IMG/VR virus record: IMGVR_UViG_3300035698_008689
Span: 1 to 33,713 of that record
DNA from: a virus
Reading direction: 5' to 3' (one strand)
DNA length: 33,713 nucleotides
Part shown: positions 4,256 to 33,713 of the stretch, piece after piece
How positions within the stretch are numbered: position 1 is the stretch's first letter
Layout of the letters: each line of letters opens with the position of its first letter
Notes under the pieces: generated by a model
The model's database searches: none
What the model was told of the DNA's origin: nothing
What the model saw: only the letters and a program-made list of their open reading frames with translations
Translations under genes and position numbers: made by a program

Positions 4256-4627
4256 TTGGCAACGGTATTGACTGATAGAAAAGGACTACGATTTGTAGAT
4301 ACAAGAGTTCGTTCAGATGGATTGAGTGCATTAATAGTAGATGCTCAAGTATCAGCGACAGATCTTGATATTCGCGATTTAATGGAATCGCAAGATAGTG
4401 TTAAGATCGGAAACGATAGCAAATTCTTAATTATTAATGCAGATGGTTCTGTTAATGCAATTAATACCGCAAGCTTAATACCGAAAAAGTTTGATGATGT
4501 TCATATTGATTATGTAAACGGGAATCCCGTTACTGTAATTTACAAATCCTCGACAGTTGTAGTTGCAACATTAACATTAATTTACAATGTCGATGGAAAT
4601 ATAACCGATGTGAGAAGGGGCGATTAG
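4256..4627 (+). CDS. Fibre-type structural protein with LDIRDL repeat
   Basis: This encodes 123 aa from a TTG start at 4256, with GTGA 5 nt upstream and no ATG nearby. The middle carries SATDLDIRDLMESQDSVKI, a repeat common in phage fibre and baseplate-associated proteins and found again in the gene at 6121. The C-terminus (NPVTVIYKSSTVVVATLTLI) is a beta-hairpin module typical of fibre proteins. The next frame follows the TAG stop without a gap, in the same phase. Placement between capsid and neck genes suggests a head fibre or collar component rather than a tail fibre, but that is inference. Confidence 0.65.
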   Translation: MATVLTDRKGLRFVDTRVRSDGLSALIVDAQVSATDLDIRDLMESQDSVKIGNDSKFLIINADGSVNAINTASLIPKKFDDVHIDYVNGNPVTVIYKSSTVVVATLTLIYNVDGNITDVRRGD

Positions 4628-6124
4628 ATAGCTAAAAAATTAACATTTAATCCATTCACTGGTAATTTTGATTATATTCTCGATTTAGAAAATCCATTAC
4701 AATATAAAGGTGGAATTGCAATCGCTGCAGACTTCCCATTAGTCGGAGTTGCTGATGTTGGTTGGTTTTATACTGTTACTGCAAGTGTAACCGATCCAGT
4801 CACAAGCCAAAGTTTTATCGCATACGATGAAATCTCATGGGGTGGAAGTTCTTGGATATTGATGGGAAACATATCTAATTTTTATACAAAGACTGAATCC
4901 GATGCAAGATATGTGCAATTTACCACAGCAAATTATGTGACACTTACCAACGGAAGCGACGGTAGTTCATTACATAATCACAATTCTATTTATTATACTG
5001 AAACCGAGCTAGACGCTGGTCAACTAGATAACCGTTATTATACAGAAACAGAGCTAGACGCTGGTCAACTAGATAACCGTTATTATACAGAAACAGAAAT
5101 TGACGCAGATTTTGTTCCATATACAGGAGCAACAGGCAATATAGATTTAGGTACTTACGATATAGTAACTACAGGAAACATTAAAGACCAGATTAATGTT
5201 TTGACAAAGATTAATGATTATTCAGCTGACAAGGACGACGAGGTCATTCTTGCAAACGCAATTTCTAATGATATAATAATTGATTTGCCTTCGGTAGCGA
5301 CTGCGACCAATAAAGAAATAAATGTAAAGAAAACAGATTCCTCTATTAACACAGTCACTCTTAGAGGTCAGACTCTTGGTCTTTCAACAGGGTTAATAGG
5401 TAACTGGAGATTCAACGAATCTAGTTGGAACGGTACAGCTGGAGAAGTCAAAGACAATACATCCTTTGGTAATGACGGTGTTGCAGAAGGTTCAACCATT
5501 ACAACAGGTAAGCTTGGTAATGCAGGACAGTTTTCTGCCAATAGAGTTTTGATTAATGGTTTAGAGCAGATTTCTACGGTTTCAATTTCGTTATGGATGA
5601 ATCTTCCTTCACAAAATAATGATAACTGTCTTTTTGAGTATGTTGCTGCCGACGGAACATTAAGAGGAGTATATACCTACTATAATAGATTATGGTTCAG
5701 TTTCCCCAGCTTCTATCAATATGGTGGTGTTGAGGTTGTTAATGATGGTACATGGCATCACATTGTATATACCTATGACGCAGACACAGATACTGCTCAA
5801 GGATATGTAGACGGTGTAGCACAGACTATGCGTTCCAGGAGTGCTTTTTCTGGTATAAGCCCTGCTTTTGCAGGTTATGTAGTAGTCGGTAGTTCAATAA
5901 AATCAGGATCTTACTACATCAGGAACGGTAAGGTTGACGAGGTCGCTATATGGAACAGAATAATAACCCAAACAGAGATAACCCAGTTATATAACGGAAG
6001 TACAGGAACAGAGATAAACACTTCCGACCGAGAAAAGATCGACGGCGAGAACTCGCAAACTTTAGACAATCAATACGATAGTGTAACATTATTGAGCGAC
6101 GGAACATATTGGTGGATATTATGA
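4628..6124 (+). CDS. Fibre/adhesin with LamG-like (concanavalin-type) domain; AUA start
   Basis: This encodes 498 aa. There is no ATG, GTG or TTG in frame before 4856. The frame opens with ATA at 4628, 4 nt after GGGGCGA, and the product begins (M)AKKLTFNPFTGNFDY, a natural phage-fibre N-terminus; starting at 4859 would remove a folded domain. Order: N-terminal module with YKGGIAIAADFP and WGGSSWILMG (1-80), shaft with FYTKTESDARY (about 82-95), HNH histidines, a tandem 15-residue repeat YTETELDAGQLDNRY (about 122-155), then a LamG-like jelly roll at about 254-458 (IGNWRFNES, DGTWHHIVYTYD, GKVDEVAIWNR). LamG domains bind carbohydrates or proteins, so this may be a host-surface or particle-attachment adhesin. 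UAG read-through from the upstream gene is the alternative to an AUA start. Confidence 0.78.
   Translation: MAKKLTFNPFTGNFDYILDLENPLQYKGGIAIAADFPLVGVADVGWFYTVTASVTDPVTSQSFIAYDEISWGGSSWILMGNISNFYTKTESDARYVQFTTANYVTLTNGSDGSSLHNHNSIYYTETELDAGQLDNRYYTETELDAGQLDNRYYTETEIDADFVPYTGATGNIDLGTYDIVTTGNIKDQINVLTKINDYSADKDDEVILANAISNDIIIDLPSVATATNKEINVKKTDSSINTVTLRGQTLGLSTGLIGNWRFNESSWNGTAGEVKDNTSFGNDGVAEGSTITTGKLGNAGQFSANRVLINGLEQISTVSISLWMNLPSQNNDNCLFEYVAADGTLRGVYTYYNRLWFSFPSFYQYGGVEVVNDGTWHHIVYTYDADTDTAQGYVDGVAQTMRSRSAFSGISPAFAGYVVVGSSIKSGSYYIRNGKVDEVAIWNRIITQTEITQLYNGSTGTEINTSDREKIDGENSQTLDNQYDSVTLLSDGTYWWIL
4991..5097 (+). repeat. 45-bp tandem repeat in the fibre shaft
   Basis: Two nearly identical 45-bp units (4991-5035 and 5036-5080) are followed by a partial third unit. 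The core GAGCTAGACGCTGGTCAACT is identical in both. The repeat keeps the frame and encodes 15 residues (YYTETELDAGQLDNR), consistent with a shaft that can lengthen or shorten by unit slippage. Confidence 0.85.
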
Positions 6125-8729: not shown

Positions 8730-9137
8730 ATGAATGAATACTTTGATGAAGACTCAGACTATGACATAAACGATGTGCGTGAAGACTTTGAATATATTTG
8801 GAAAAAGAATATTGTTCAAGTTGATTTGGTTAGACAGACGACTCCTCAAGCTGGAGATTATTTCTCATCAACAGAAGACGAAGGACAAGTTACTTTCAAG
8901 TTATGGGCAAATATCCAAGGTATTTCTTCCGACCAATATAAACAAGCAGTCCAAGGTATCATCACACCAGACGCACAATTACACGTTTATGTCAAGTGGG
9001 ATGAGAACATCGAGAATTTGGATATCATTAAATTCAGCGATTGGTACTATCGGATTAAAAATTACAACAAATCGATGTATGATGGTCAATTTGCATTCAT
9101 AGATTTCGATATATATCGTATTGATAGGGTGATTTAG
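8730..9137 (+). CDS. Head-closure (stopper) protein
   Basis: This encodes 135 aa. ATG 8730 is preferred to the in-frame GTG at 8721, which is part of the AGGTG site. The C-terminal half has the pattern of SPP1 gp16-type head-closure proteins: a beta barrel ending with an IIKFSDWYYRIKNYNKSM-type segment and a final strand (FAFIDFDIYRIDR). The N-terminus is very acidic. Location between connector and tail-completion genes matches the usual neck gene order. Sequence support is moderate because this family diverges strongly. Confidence 0.65.
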   Translation: MNEYFDEDSDYDINDVREDFEYIWKKNIVQVDLVRQTTPQAGDYFSSTEDEGQVTFKLWANIQGISSDQYKQAVQGIITPDAQLHVYVKWDENIENLDIIKFSDWYYRIKNYNKSMYDGQFAFIDFDIYRIDRVI

Positions 9138-9138
9138 T

Positions 9139-9645
9139 ATAGAGGCAATCGATTTTTTTGATGCCGAGAAACTAGGCCACAGTATATTCAAGGCACTTAC
9201 TGCTGTTTATGTAGGTGAGCTTATCAGAAGAACACCTTCTAAGACAGGCTTCCATAGTGAACAATGGGACTCCTACAAGAATGGTAATTTCAGTTACACT
9301 ATTTTTAATCCTTATGGGGATATTATCATTTTTCTAGAAGAAAGAACCAAGCCACATATTATTAGACCTAAAAATAAAAAGTTTCTTAGGTTTCAAATAG
9401 ACGAAGAGCCTAAGTTTCGGAACAAAAAAGAAACTCAGTTATTTAGGAAACATAAAATGATATGGTTTTATGGAAAAAATAAGAAACCTGTTTTAGGATA
9501 TGCCAAACAAGGAACACTTTATTTTTGTTTTGCTAAAAAAGTAAATCATCCTGGATTTAAAGGCCAGCATTTTATTTCTGATATCTTCTCAAGTGATAAA
9601 TTATTCGATAAATTCGAGTCATTAATTTGGAATGCAATCAAATAA
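9139..9645 (+). CDS. Tail-completion protein (HK97 gp10-like); AUA start
   Basis: This encodes 168 aa. No ATG, GTG or TTG occurs in frame between the upstream stop at 9130 and codon 107 (ATG 9457). The frame opens with ATA at 9139, 6 nt after GGTGA (9128-9132). The part before 9457 holds the family signature of HK97 gp10-type proteins: RRTPSKTGF near the start, FLEERTKPHIIRPKNKKFL in the middle, and later VNHPGFKGQHFISDIF, so the long form must be real. This family joins the neck and tail and may help set the first tail rings. It lies exactly where that gene is expected. The start is a rare codon with good ribosome-binding support. Confidence 0.8.
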   Translation: MEAIDFFDAEKLGHSIFKALTAVYVGELIRRTPSKTGFHSEQWDSYKNGNFSYTIFNPYGDIIIFLEERTKPHIIRPKNKKFLRFQIDEEPKFRNKKETQLFRKHKMIWFYGKNKKPVLGYAKQGTLYFCFAKKVNHPGFKGQHFISDIFSSDKLFDKFESLIWNAIK

Positions 9646-12654: not shown

Positions 12655-13042
12655 AACAACAGTACCAAAACCACACGATGAAGAAGTTCCTAAAATAGTA
12701 GAAAGTTTTGAGGACGCAGAAGTAGTAGAAGAAGAAAAACCACAATTCCCACATTGGATGAAAGAATTACCAAGTGGCGAATATTCAGTACAAACAAAAG
12801 ACGGCGAATTTATATTCGCAGAACTTAATTACGATGATATTAGATCAATCAGGAAAAGACTGACTGCAAACGGCAGGAAAAAAGTTGAAGGAGATGTTCT
12901 CTCTGCAGCTATGATATCAAAAGGTTTAACCAATAGATCAATGGGTGAACTAGATATTTTAGAGCTTAAAGGTTCTACAGTTATGAGATTACTAAACGCA
13001 GCTAATAAGTTATATAGTCTTGATGATTTTTTACAAAGTTGA
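12629..13042 (+). CDS. Tail assembly chaperone, short form (gpG-like)
   Basis: This encodes 137 aa. The gene overlaps its predecessor; a start at ATG 12644 with GGAGAAG upstream is an alternative. An acidic, disordered N-terminus (about 1-40) leads into a compact domain (about 45-135) with IRKRLTANGRKKVEGDVLSA, and the protein ends YSLDDFLQS. Tail assembly chaperones are encoded just before the tape measure and bind it before tube polymerisation. The same place, size and downstream overlapping ORF are seen here, together with a T TTT TTA slippery heptamer 6 nt before the stop. Assignment comes from context and frameshift architecture rather than sequence similarity. Confidence 0.75.
   Translation: MEKIQMQNKTTVPKPHDEEVPKIVESFEDAEVVEEEKPQFPHWMKELPSGEYSVQTKDGEFIFAELNYDDIRSIRKRLTANGRKKVEGDVLSAAMISKGLTNRSMGELDILELKGSTVMRLLNAANKLYSLDDFLQS
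13027..13033 (+). promoter_or_regulatory. Predicted -1 ribosomal frameshift site (T TTT TTA)
   Basis: In the frame of the gene at 12629 the codons read GAT TTT TTA CAA AGT TGA, giving the canonical X XXY YYZ heptamer T TTT TTA in phase. A -1 slip continues ACA AAG TTG AAA in the frame of the gene at 13039 without a stop, yielding a fusion of about 204 aa (135 + 69). An 8-bp stem (13038-13045 with 13106-13113) begins 4 nt downstream and might stimulate slippage. Confidence 0.72.
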
Positions 13043-13242
13043 AAGACCTCATTGAATATAACCGATATATCGAAGAAATCGAAAAGGATGTGAAGAAAAG
13101 TATAACTTTCAACATTTCTTTGCGATGGAATATCGATATTGAGGTCGTTGAAAGTTGGAGTCTTTCTAAAATAAAAAAACATTATTCGGCTTTGATGTAT
13201 GAAATAGAAAAACAAAAAAGATCGATAAAAGATCGAAAGTGA
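13039..13242 (+). CDS. Tail assembly chaperone extension (T part of a G-T fusion)
   Basis: This encodes 67 aa if started at TTG 13039, which overlaps the preceding stop, but it is more likely read as the extension of the previous gene after -1 frameshifting, adding 69 residues. The product is helical and highly charged (YNRYIEEIEKDVKKSI, SLSKIKKHYSALMYEIEKQK), as expected for the tape-measure-binding T domain. The phase relation is exactly -1 and no good ribosome binding site precedes the TTG. The tape measure gene begins 4 nt after its stop. Confidence 0.72.
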   Translation: MKDLIEYNRYIEEIEKDVKKSITFNISLRWNIDIEVVESWSLSKIKKHYSALMYEIEKQKRSIKDRK

Positions 13243-17212: not shown

Positions 17213-17707
17213 ATGAATTATAAAGAAAGATTGAATAAAATGTACGAAAAAGTAGTTTATACAAAGTTCGGAATGCCTGAAGACGAAGCATCTAAAAACG
17301 AAAAAGAAGCAAAAACATTCGTTGATAAAATTAATAAATTCGCAGCAAAGAAAATCACAGAAATAAATAATTGGTTGATTGATAGGATATCAGAACAACA
17401 AGATAACGAGATTTTTAGGAATTTAAGTTCAGATAAATCCTCTGGTCAATATTATTCTTATGAGCCTATAGACTCAACTGAAGGTATATTTTTCGTAGAT
17501 GTTAATTTCTTAATCAAAAAAAGAGGAAATGTTATTGGTAAGCTTGGTAAATTCCCACGAATAAGAGATGCTATGGCGAAGAAAATAAAATTGCCAGTGC
17601 CATATTATGATTTAAGAAGAGAAAAAGTAGAGGAAGGTAACCACAGAGTTGCAGTCTCGAAAGAAATAGGATTAAAGAGTGTACCTGTGAGAATATTTTG
17701 GAAGTGA
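17213..17707 (+). CDS. ParB-like domain protein with MNYKERLN N-terminus
   Basis: This encodes 164 aa. It starts with MNYKERLN, identical to the gene at 482. Residues about 15-75 are charged and helical. The C-terminal part ends with EEGNHRVAVSKEIGLKSVPV, the conserved box of ParB/sulfiredoxin-like domains (usually DGxHR), including GNHR at 142-145. PVPYYDLRREKV before it fits the same fold. ParB-like domains bind CTP or act as nucleases or kinases in different families, so activity cannot be assigned. Its place between spike and tip genes is unusual. The shared N-terminus suggests delivery into the particle; that is a hypothesis. Confidence 0.72.
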   Translation: MNYKERLNKMYEKVVYTKFGMPEDEASKNEKEAKTFVDKINKFAAKKITEINNWLIDRISEQQDNEIFRNLSSDKSSGQYYSYEPIDSTEGIFFVDVNFLIKKRGNVIGKLGKFPRIRDAMAKKIKLPVPYYDLRREKVEEGNHRVAVSKEIGLKSVPVRIFWK

Positions 17708-18070: not shown

Positions 18071-18118
18071 GTAAAATAACATAATAATATATATATTGCG
18101 AGAGCAAAGGTGATTATA

Positions 18119-18544
18119 ATAGTAACGAAAGAAGATGCAACAGATAATCCATTAGAAAATCTAGGAAGAGATGTCTATTTAACTTTAAATAATGACATTG
18201 CAATTAATTCTAATAACGACTTTTCAACAGTTAGATATTATAATAACCTTATTCAAGCAATATCCTCAAGATTAAAGACTCAAATTGGTGAGTTATCACA
18301 ACACCCAAATTATGGAAGCAGATTAAACGAATTAATCGGAACTGTTCCTAATAGCTTAACATTATCAGCAGCAAAGATGCATGTGTTTGAAGCATTAACA
18401 CAAGAACCAAGAATAGAAGAAATTTTAGATATTTCTCCATATTTCAGGGAGAATACTAGCAAAACAGTTATAGACATTAATATTGAAGTAAAACCAATTA
18501 GCGAGATAGAATCACTTAATTTGGTTTATAGTTTATTTGTATAG
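18119..18544 (+). CDS. Baseplate wedge protein (gp25/W-like); possible AUA start
   Basis: This encodes 141 aa if started at ATA 18119, 5 nt after GGTGA (18109-18113). The only canonical alternative is GTG 18110, which lies inside that ribosome binding site and would be hard to use. The sequence fits gp25/gpW-like wedge proteins: LGRDVYLTLNNDIAIN, YYNNLIQAISSRLKTQIGEL, HPNYGSRLNELIGTVPN and a final VKPISEIESLNLVYS strand. An EPR-type segment (TQEPRIEEILDI) sits in the usual place. These proteins join wedge to hub in the baseplate. The gpJ-like gene follows 8 nt downstream. Confidence 0.8.
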   Translation: MVTKEDATDNPLENLGRDVYLTLNNDIAINSNNDFSTVRYYNNLIQAISSRLKTQIGELSQHPNYGSRLNELIGTVPNSLTLSAAKMHVFEALTQEPRIEEILDISPYFRENTSKTVIDINIEVKPISEIESLNLVYSLFV

Positions 18545-30620: not shown

Positions 30621-31664
30621 ATGACAGGACAAATAGGTATAGTTCAAATATTAAAGGATCTCACGTATCCATTACATGCAAATGATATTAGTAAATTAAA
30701 AACTGATATTGTTAATCTTCAAACTAAGTTGTCGATAGAAGAAAACGAAACCGATTCATTATCTTCTTCAAAAGAAGAACTGGAAGATAAATTGAATAAA
30801 TTAATATCAGATTCTGACACTGTCGAAGATGAAGCAAAAGATCAAATAGATTTTCTTAAAATTGAAATCATACGTTATACTAATATCATCGAAGAAAAAG
30901 AATTGATGATCGATAGTATGACAAACGAAATAGAAGTTTTTAATTCCGACGTTATGAGATTACAACGAGCAATCAAAGATTGTCCTGATCTAAACGATCC
31001 CGTTGAACAAAAACTAATTAATAAATATCCAAAACAAAACACTACTTACAATAGAAAAGAAACCGATCGTGAATATGATATCGATGTTAGAAATTTTCTT
31101 GCGATGTATGATGATTTTAAAGTTCCTACATTCACTGGAAAAAACTACGATGAGATTGCACTAAAGTCTTGTTTATGGGTTCAAAAAAATATAGAGTATA
31201 AGACTGATGGGTCACCCGATTCTTACAAGACCGGAGAATATTGGGCGTATCCGTATCAAACAATGTATCATAAATACGGCGATTGCGAAGATGGCGCAAT
31301 ATTGTTAGCATGTATAATGTTAAAGAGTGGTATTCCTTATTATAGAGTTAGAATGGCGTGTGGTTCTGTATTTGGTGGAGGACATGCTTATTGTTGTTAC
31401 GCTAGAGAATTAGACGATGAGTTCATCGTTCTTGATTGGTGTTACTGGCCAAAAGAAATTCCAATAAACGATAGACTATTACACAAAGAAGAACAAAACT
31501 ATTCAGATGTAACTAGAAATTTTTATGTTTGGTTTAGTTTTGATTTAAAACACAGTTACGGACAGATGCTGACGATAAATGCAGCAACAAAAAGCAGAAA
31601 GAAAGCAAATAAAATATTAAAGAAAATTAAATTTAAACCAATTAATTTCGATGATAAAGTATGA
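30621..31664 (+). CDS. Coiled-coil transglutaminase-like cysteine peptidase (candidate lysis enzyme)
   Basis: This encodes 347 aa. ATG 30621 lies 4 nt after GGTGA; an upstream in-frame ATG at 30600 is inside the fibre gene. Residues about 22-118 form a long coiled coil (LKTDIVNLQTKLSIEENE, KEELEDKLNKLISDSD). The C-terminal domain has the transglutaminase-like order Cys-His-Asp: C222 in YGDCEDGAILLACIM, H255 in GGGHAYCCYA and D272 in FIVLDWCYWP. This superfamily includes the pseudomurein endoisopeptidases PeiW/PeiP of methanogen viruses, but no pseudomurein-binding repeats are visible here, so the substrate is unknown. The two membrane proteins that follow suggest lysis; a tail-associated role in entry is also possible. 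Confidence 0.78.
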   Translation: MTGQIGIVQILKDLTYPLHANDISKLKTDIVNLQTKLSIEENETDSLSSSKEELEDKLNKLISDSDTVEDEAKDQIDFLKIEIIRYTNIIEEKELMIDSMTNEIEVFNSDVMRLQRAIKDCPDLNDPVEQKLINKYPKQNTTYNRKETDREYDIDVRNFLAMYDDFKVPTFTGKNYDEIALKSCLWVQKNIEYKTDGSPDSYKTGEYWAYPYQTMYHKYGDCEDGAILLACIMLKSGIPYYRVRMACGSVFGGGHAYCCYARELDDEFIVLDWCYWPKEIPINDRLLHKEEQNYSDVTRNFYVWFSFDLKHSYGQMLTINAATKSRKKANKILKKIKFKPINFDDKV

Positions 31665-32450: not shown

Positions 32451-33083
32451 TTACAACTCTGAAATAAACGTTTTTATCTTTTTACCTTTTTTGTCGCCAA
32501 TGCCATTTACGATAAAACTTTTGTCCTCGAAACTTTGTTTCAATTTCGATAGGTTATTGTAATTTGTTTTAATCCTTGATACTAATTTATTGCTGATGCC
32601 TGGAATTAAAAATAACAATTGCTCATATGGATTCAATTTATGATTGACAAACTTATTTTCGCCATGAAAGACTTCAATCTTGTCTTCTTTAATTTCCTTG
32701 ATAATCATTTTAATCATTAACAATAAATCATCATCTGTCTCAACTTGGATGACTCTAATATTATATCTCAAGAACACTGATTTTAGCATTCCCAAGTATT
32801 GGTTCTTTGTTACATTGTTGTACTTATTTAGTACAGCGTAATGGAAGAAAGTTCCTGAAATGATTAAGAACTTGTATTTATGTTGTTGCATTGCAATCAA
32901 TTGTTTCTGTATGTGTTTCTTGGTATAACTTTGAATGAAATCGGCTATGGTTTTTCTTTCAAATATAGAATCGGTTTCTTCGTCGAAAAAATCTCCTGTT
33001 GGCAATGCTTCTATTTTACTACCTTCAAAAAGTTCTGTTGCTTTCAATTGTATCTCTGGGGGTTCTCTACTATCTATTATCAT
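32451..33083 (-). CDS. ERCC4/XPF-type nuclease with C-terminal helix-hairpin-helix
   Basis: This encodes 210 aa. The nuclease core is clear: IDSREPPE (D4, R6, E7) at the start, then TGDFFDEE and FERKTIADF, giving the GDx(n)ERKx3D signature (D31, E42, R43, K44, D48). The C-terminal 60 residues contain two helix-hairpin-helix-like repeats (LLFLIPGISNKLVSRIKT, IVNGIGDKKGKKIKTF) for DNA binding. Together this is the layout of archaeal XPF/Hef nuclease parts without the helicase. It would cut branched or forked DNA, probably in viral replication or recombination. The start has GGTGATAAAATG and overlaps the stop of the upstream gene by 3 nt. Confidence 0.92.
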   Translation of the reverse strand: MIIDSREPPEIQLKATELFEGSKIEALPTGDFFDEETDSIFERKTIADFIQSYTKKHIQKQLIAMQQHKYKFLIISGTFFHYAVLNKYNNVTKNQYLGMLKSVFLRYNIRVIQVETDDDLLLMIKMIIKEIKEDKIEVFHGENKFVNHKLNPYEQLLFLIPGISNKLVSRIKTNYNNLSKLKQSFEDKSFIVNGIGDKKGKKIKTFISEL

Positions 33084-33434: not shown

Positions 33435-33713
33435 TCACTTTATAAATTTGCAAAGTCTTGGTAAAGGACAATAACCTTTCCTTTTCACTGTCGTGCAACT
33501 TGGAGGAAGAATTATCCTTTTGTATAAATATTTCAATTGTCTTTCTTTAGTTATACAATGTAAGAACTTTTTCCTATCCATAAACTTTTTTAAAATATTT
33601 TCTATGTCTTTTTCACTGTATCCTTCTGAAATTAAATGAGTGATTACAATAAACCGTTCGTGATATGAATTGTCGAATTCGTTTATGGAAAGTAATATTT
33701 TTGCTACGCAAGG
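33435..33713 (-). CDS. priL: Archaeal-type DNA primase large subunit, C-terminal Fe-S domain (5' part outside window)
   Basis: The reverse strand is open from the right edge to a TGA at 33435-33437, giving 92 visible residues. They match the C-terminal iron-sulfur domain of archaeal/eukaryotic primase large subunits: PCVAKILLSINEFDNSYHER, FIVITHLISEGYSEKDIENI and, near the end, ILPPSCTTVKRKGYCPLPRL followed by Cys. The four cysteines (visible residues 2, 73, 82 and 88) are in the order expected to hold a 4Fe-4S cluster. PriL supports primer initiation and handover in archaeal replication. A virus-encoded copy implies its own primase. Whether a small-subunit domain is fused upstream cannot be seen. 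Confidence 0.85.
   Translation of the reverse strand, partial: PCVAKILLSINEFDNSYHERFIVITHLISEGYSEKDIENILKKFMDRKKFLHCITKERQLKYLYKRIILPPSCTTVKRKGYCPLPRLCKFIK

Follow-up and report, generated by a model that had tools for sequence, protein, structure and literature searches.

AUA initiation is already known in bacteria. In Staphylococcus aureus, infC, ccpN and citZ start with AUA, a strong or extended Shine-Dalgarno (SD) sequence stands before infC and ccpN, and AUA starts yield about 10% of AUG output, a share that for ccpN rises to as much as 30% when the medium is rich (PMC13009471). SD-led initiation in archaea is the subject of a review that, in its available parts, names AUG, GUG and UUG as starts and does not contain the term 'AUA' (PMC7531240), and leaders of the GGTGA type are the archaeal form of the SD in two further papers (PMC3160421, PMC2784483). 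An ATG-to-ATA SNP in the start codon of nadA appears among the mutations acquired during construction of a Halobacterium strain (PMC11834397), and a set of bacterial and archaeal genes is described as including genes annotated with AUA, AUU or AUC starts (PMC5397173); such annotations therefore exist in databases. Start choice by the archaeal, eukaryote-like factors aIF1, aIF1A and aIF2 has been described for AUG, GUG and UUG. In the literature searched, we found no naturally occurring AUA start described for archaea or for their viruses. All 64 codons were reportedly covered by Hecht et al. in 2017.

Here we describe candidate AUA starts in IMG/VR record IMGVR_UViG_3300035698_008689, the whole of which (33,713 bases, GC 33.6%) we call the window. 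The virus probably has an archaeal host, because its SD is GGTGA, the archaeal type, and because its ERCC4 nuclease matches PDB chains named XPF endonuclease (E 1e-6). It shares GGTGA leaders with SD-led archaeal initiation and shares with the staphylococcal genes a proposed AUA start, a strong SD and, we expect, an output weaker than that of AUG. The staphylococcal system differs in having a bacterial ribosome with IF3, in involving regulatory or host genes and in being documented by ribosome profiling and reporters, whereas our case is built from sequence. The head-to-tail gene block and the host-domain marker are as follows.

7584: adaptor position, without a family match
8730..9137, + strand: head-completion-like gene (Phage_HCP, E 6.8e-4, under the Pfam cut-off), stop TAG 9135-9137
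9128..9132, + strand: Shine-Dalgarno GGTGA, whose TGA (9130-9132) is the stop that closes the frame of the 9139 gene upstream
9139..9141, + strand: ATA at 6 nt from the end of GGTGA, the proposed start, in keeping with leader score and start-to-motif length
9139..9645, + strand: 168 codons, putatively for a neck / tail-completion protein (HK97-gp10-like), with no canonical start ahead of ATG 9457
9737: presumed terminator, placed by position only, without a family match
10565: tail sheath (phrog_279, E 4.5e-33)
11996: tube-like gene, weak matches
13247: tape measure
18553: baseplate gene, ATG start
32451-33083, - strand: XPF/ERCC4-type nuclease, host-domain marker

Searches did not support a PriL-like reading of the protein encoded at 33435-33713, which carries what we take to be a PriL-like motif.

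The gene at 9139 and its proposed start

The frame of the gene reads TGA (9130-9132) TTT AGT ATA (9139-9141) GAG GCA ATC GAT and stays open until the stop that ends at 9645. As the initial annotation had stated, GGTGA (9128-9132) can be read directly at 6 nt before ATA 9139, and no ATG, GTG or TTG follows for 106 codons, ATG 9457 being the first. Its argument against read-through also holds: the 8730 gene ends in another frame (AGG GTG ATT TAG, stop 9135-9137), which makes read-through of the upstream stop impossible here. Computed with a generic archaeal anti-SD, the leader duplex at 9139 is -8.9 kcal/mol, a score reached by 1.0% of all positions, compared with a median of -8.3 at 33 scored ATG starts. 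Of 20,000 random anchors, only 0.76% are followed within 20 codons by an ATA that is in frame and has a leader of this quality; among the 1049 ATA triplets, 13 are matched in leader score. The pattern GGTGA-N(4-8)-ATA occurs 10 times on the + strand, any frame counted, so an SD with an ATA is not rare and by itself proves nothing; the ATA at 9139 is telling because an open frame without a canonical start lies there.

Could the ribosome enter this frame elsewhere? Near-cognate codons are present nearby (ATC 9148, CTA 9172, ATA 9184), and the two frames overlap by a few bases (9133-9137), such that a frameshift near 9129-9137 could also be imagined. We regard both routes as improbable: the leaders of the three codons score only -5.2, -3.0 and -2.7, respectively, the overlap holds no typical slippery site by our reading, and head-completion and neck proteins are encoded by separate genes in Clostridioides phage phiC2, in the virus contig L048 and in ten further phage loci.

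The region ahead of ATG 9457 is coding by frame, though its score is low for this virus. Its 106 codons score 16.1 bits in frame and -45.9 and -133.4 bits in the other two, and the maximum among 616 off-frame stretches of the virus is -31.5; at the same time, 16.1 bits falls under the first percentile of the virus's in-frame stretches (32.8; 311 stretches scored). A profile built from 11 members of the neck family matches residues 17-78 (hhalign E 2e-4, probability 46%) but nothing in the 62 residues that begin at ATG 9457. The claim that the family motifs lie ahead of ATG 9457 is thereby borne out, and the TPxxTG motif also falls in the part that a start at ATG 9457 would discard. That ATG is the first canonical start, and it might be proposed that only the 62 codons of 9457-9645 are translated and that the upstream part is a remnant. 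Given that the family profile matches the upstream part only, where the frame is open and coding, we consider this very improbable.

Based on motif and gene order, we read the product of the 9139 gene as a probable, distant HK97-gp10-like, or neck (tail-completion), protein. The order in phiC2 is adaptor, adaptor, gp11 (PF04883, E 7e-19), gp12 (terminator, E 2e-40) and sheath; the 9139 gene lies likewise between head-completion and terminator/sheath, in an order matching both phiC2 and L048. In a tblastn search of the whole phage collection, phiC2 gp11 matched residues 1-58 weakly (E 0.6), with 1.4e-5 against seven fetched loci, and the weak match gains weight because it falls on the syntenic gene. 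The putative tail completion protein of Marinitoga phage MPV1 matches residues 64-154 (E 0.4 in the whole collection, again weak, and 9e-6 against the seven loci). BLASTP found nothing between the 9139 protein and L048 gp10 (E 3.6); the two are linked by position and by the assignment of L048 gp10 to phrog_5 (E 1.9e-6). Against Pfam and PHROG the 9139 protein gave no family save an irrelevant match at E 0.13. A single-sequence AlphaFold model was set aside at pLDDT 37.5. The likeness to HK97-gp10_like, phrog_5 and Neck1 (phiC2 gp11) lies in TPxxTG and in the order head-completion, gene, terminator, sheath; the differences are that the relationship is distant (28% identity, A4), that the relatives start with ATG and that the N terminus is shorter here. 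From the ATA to TG there are 37 residues, compared with 38 in the syntenic L048 gp10 and 50-69 in 11 phages; MPV1 is without the TG motif and has 40 residues at that column. In total, we hold AUA initiation at 9139 to be the best explanation for the neck gene, and a likely one, on the sequence evidence of one contig for which no close relative was found.

Proposed companion starts at 4628 and 18119

Two further genes bear on the question, and their features are as follows.

4615..4630, + strand: proposed second AUA start, AAGGGGCGATTAG-ATA, start 4628, duplex -7.4
4628..6124, + strand: fibre/adhesin-like gene with an NPFTGNFDY N terminus and a Laminin_G_3 domain (PF13385, E 1e-14)
18109..18121, + strand: third AUA candidate, GGTGA 18109-18113, 5 nt, ATA 18119
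18119..18544, + strand: sheath initiator gene, called mechanically from GTG 18110 (in that version it matches PF10934 at E 8.6e-9)

The fibre protein begins I/M-A-K-K-L-T-F-NPFTGNFDY. A scan of viral contigs for NPFTGNFD[YF] returned 39 loci in 29 distinct contexts, and all 39 have a canonical start 5-10 codons ahead of the motif (ATG 34, GTG 3, TTG 2, ATA 0); ATA 4628 therefore sits at the initiator position of the relatives, four of which have ATG at exactly 7 codons, as in the window. Judged by this comparison, the case for an AUA start is stronger at 4628 than at 9139. A stricter N-terminal pattern (the motif of the window combined with a family motif) had no match, tblastn of the fibre N terminus against phages gave nothing useful, and no N-terminal fragment matched the PHROGs. 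Since ATA 4628 directly follows TAG 4625-4627 in the frame of the upstream gene, read-through was considered at this site. Pyrrolysine-type read-through is unlikely, given that TAG is an ordinary stop in this virus (used by 11 of 40 genes) and that the position of the ATA is where the relatives have their start codon. The same gene contains repeated YYTETELDAGQLDNR units at about 4995-5100.

At the sheath initiator gene, the choice of the ORF callers, GTG 18110, sits inside the SD, and the leader duplex is -8.9 at ATA 18119 (followed by GTA ACG) versus -3.0 at GTG 18110. Homology is indecisive between the two, because the conserved Sheath_initiator match covers the GTG version only from residue 28 onward. 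We lean toward ATA 18119 as the start of this gene. The initial annotation had suggested from two cases that AUA initiation is systematic in this virus, and the suggestion gains a third candidate: AUA appears to work as a further start codon at 9139, at 4628 and probably at 18119.

An important question is whether the gene at 9139 has an ordinary ATG start that reads as ATA only through a mistake in sequencing or assembly, or because the allele is defective. With the site taken alone, on one uncultured contig, the idea has some appeal, given that ATA and ATG differ by one base (G to A) and that 13 of 13 neck relatives start with ATG. The same change would have to have struck three starts, yet the 39 genes hold no internal stop; by our own arithmetic, G-to-A at 3 of 37 starts leads one to expect about 17 of the 216 stop-making changes of this kind at Trp codons, and 0 are observed. 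We therefore hold an error to be unlikely and AUA initiation to be the better reading of the three sites.

Start codons, code and relatives across the virus

On the + strand, 39 genes begin with ATG (34), ATA (3) or TTG (2), none with GTG; these are our own SD-guided assignments, with the three ATA entered as proposed. GGTGA is the virus's own SD motif: between positions 1 and 32300 of the + strand, 19 of its 44 copies precede a start of our assignment by 4-8 nt (17 ATG and 2 ATA, those at 9139 and 18119). The mechanical GTG 'starts' at 1531, 6533, 18110 and 22694 are each the GTG within GGTGA, an artefact that could inflate GTG counts in the annotation of archaeal viruses. A small gene at 13039-13242 has a TTG start that overlaps the upstream stop as TTGA, with no SD and a leader score of -1.7.

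A changed code, in which AUA means methionine throughout virus and host, would make AUA starts ordinary and would account for ATA, not GTG, being the second most used start. The interior of the genes argues to the contrary. Reading AUA as Ile gives a proteome with 8.3% Ile and 1.8% Met, which are ordinary values. There are 256 internal ATA codons, and the 41 that could be aligned with the small number of relatives at our disposal, a small sample, face I 15 times, V 6, L 4 and M 3, much like ATT and ATC, while ATG codons, unlike ATA, align with M in 5 of 28 cases. The internal AUA codons are thus not aligned with conserved Met, and since the residues facing them are mostly I, V or L, AUA is still Ile inside genes. 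Of all the alternatives, we give the changed code the least credence.

Are such starts found in relatives? The initial annotation had proposed a search for them; the relatives examined (39 fibre, 13 neck), which are distant, all start canonically, with M first in each of the 13 neck proteins (A4). No close relative turned up when viral contigs were scanned with single proteins (the 9139 protein, the sheath, the capsid, the baseplate and the protease), nor when genome contigs, and 87 genomes from the phylum to which one archaeal MAG belongs, were scanned with the sheath. L048, which is identical to L047 over the 17.9 kb in common, has the neck gene order of the window but canonical starts. A protein encoded at 30621-31664, transglutaminase-like by our reading of its sequence, matches a contig of an archaeal MAG (L046:418-975, 46% identity) and L048 (L048:9899-10738, 33% identity); L046 had no strong match to the window beyond this protein.

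Proposed initiation and its consequences

We propose a mechanism in which SD pairing at GGTGA 9128-9132 would position the ribosomes and the initiator Met-tRNA (anticodon CAU) would accept AUA 9139 via a third-position mismatch, with the strong pairing helping initiation at AUA. A stop codon adjoins the proposed AUA at both 9139 and 4628, and ribosomes ending at UAG 9135-9137 may assist at the adjoining 9139, as others may at 4628. The output of AUA would probably lie below that of AUG.

Does the virus use AUA to lower the expression of minor proteins, as the initial annotation had supposed? The virion parts concerned are low-copy in phage virion stoichiometry, and the three genes would probably be so here, which makes such down-regulation plausible; the low-copy genes at 8730, 9737 and 18553, however, use ATG. 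More broadly, AUA may be a regular start for this virus and for the archaeon that it would infect, commoner than GUG and UUG, perhaps through an unusual modification of the initiator tRNA or a permissive aIF1, an idea that we put forward tentatively and with some doubt.

If the proposed starts are real, two to three AUA and no GUG starts in 34 kb would mean either a different rule of start choice or a viral setting of dosage. Automatic annotation would drop the neck gene or keep only 62 codons of it, and would deprive the fibre gene of its N terminus. Were AUA a regular start in the host as well, gene finders, which permit ATG, GTG and TTG only, would have overlooked a class of archaeal genes that begin with it. 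N termini in this virus hold a further observation: MNYKERLN begins two unrelated-looking genes, at 482-847 and 17213-17707, and might serve the two as a shared signal for targeting or packaging.
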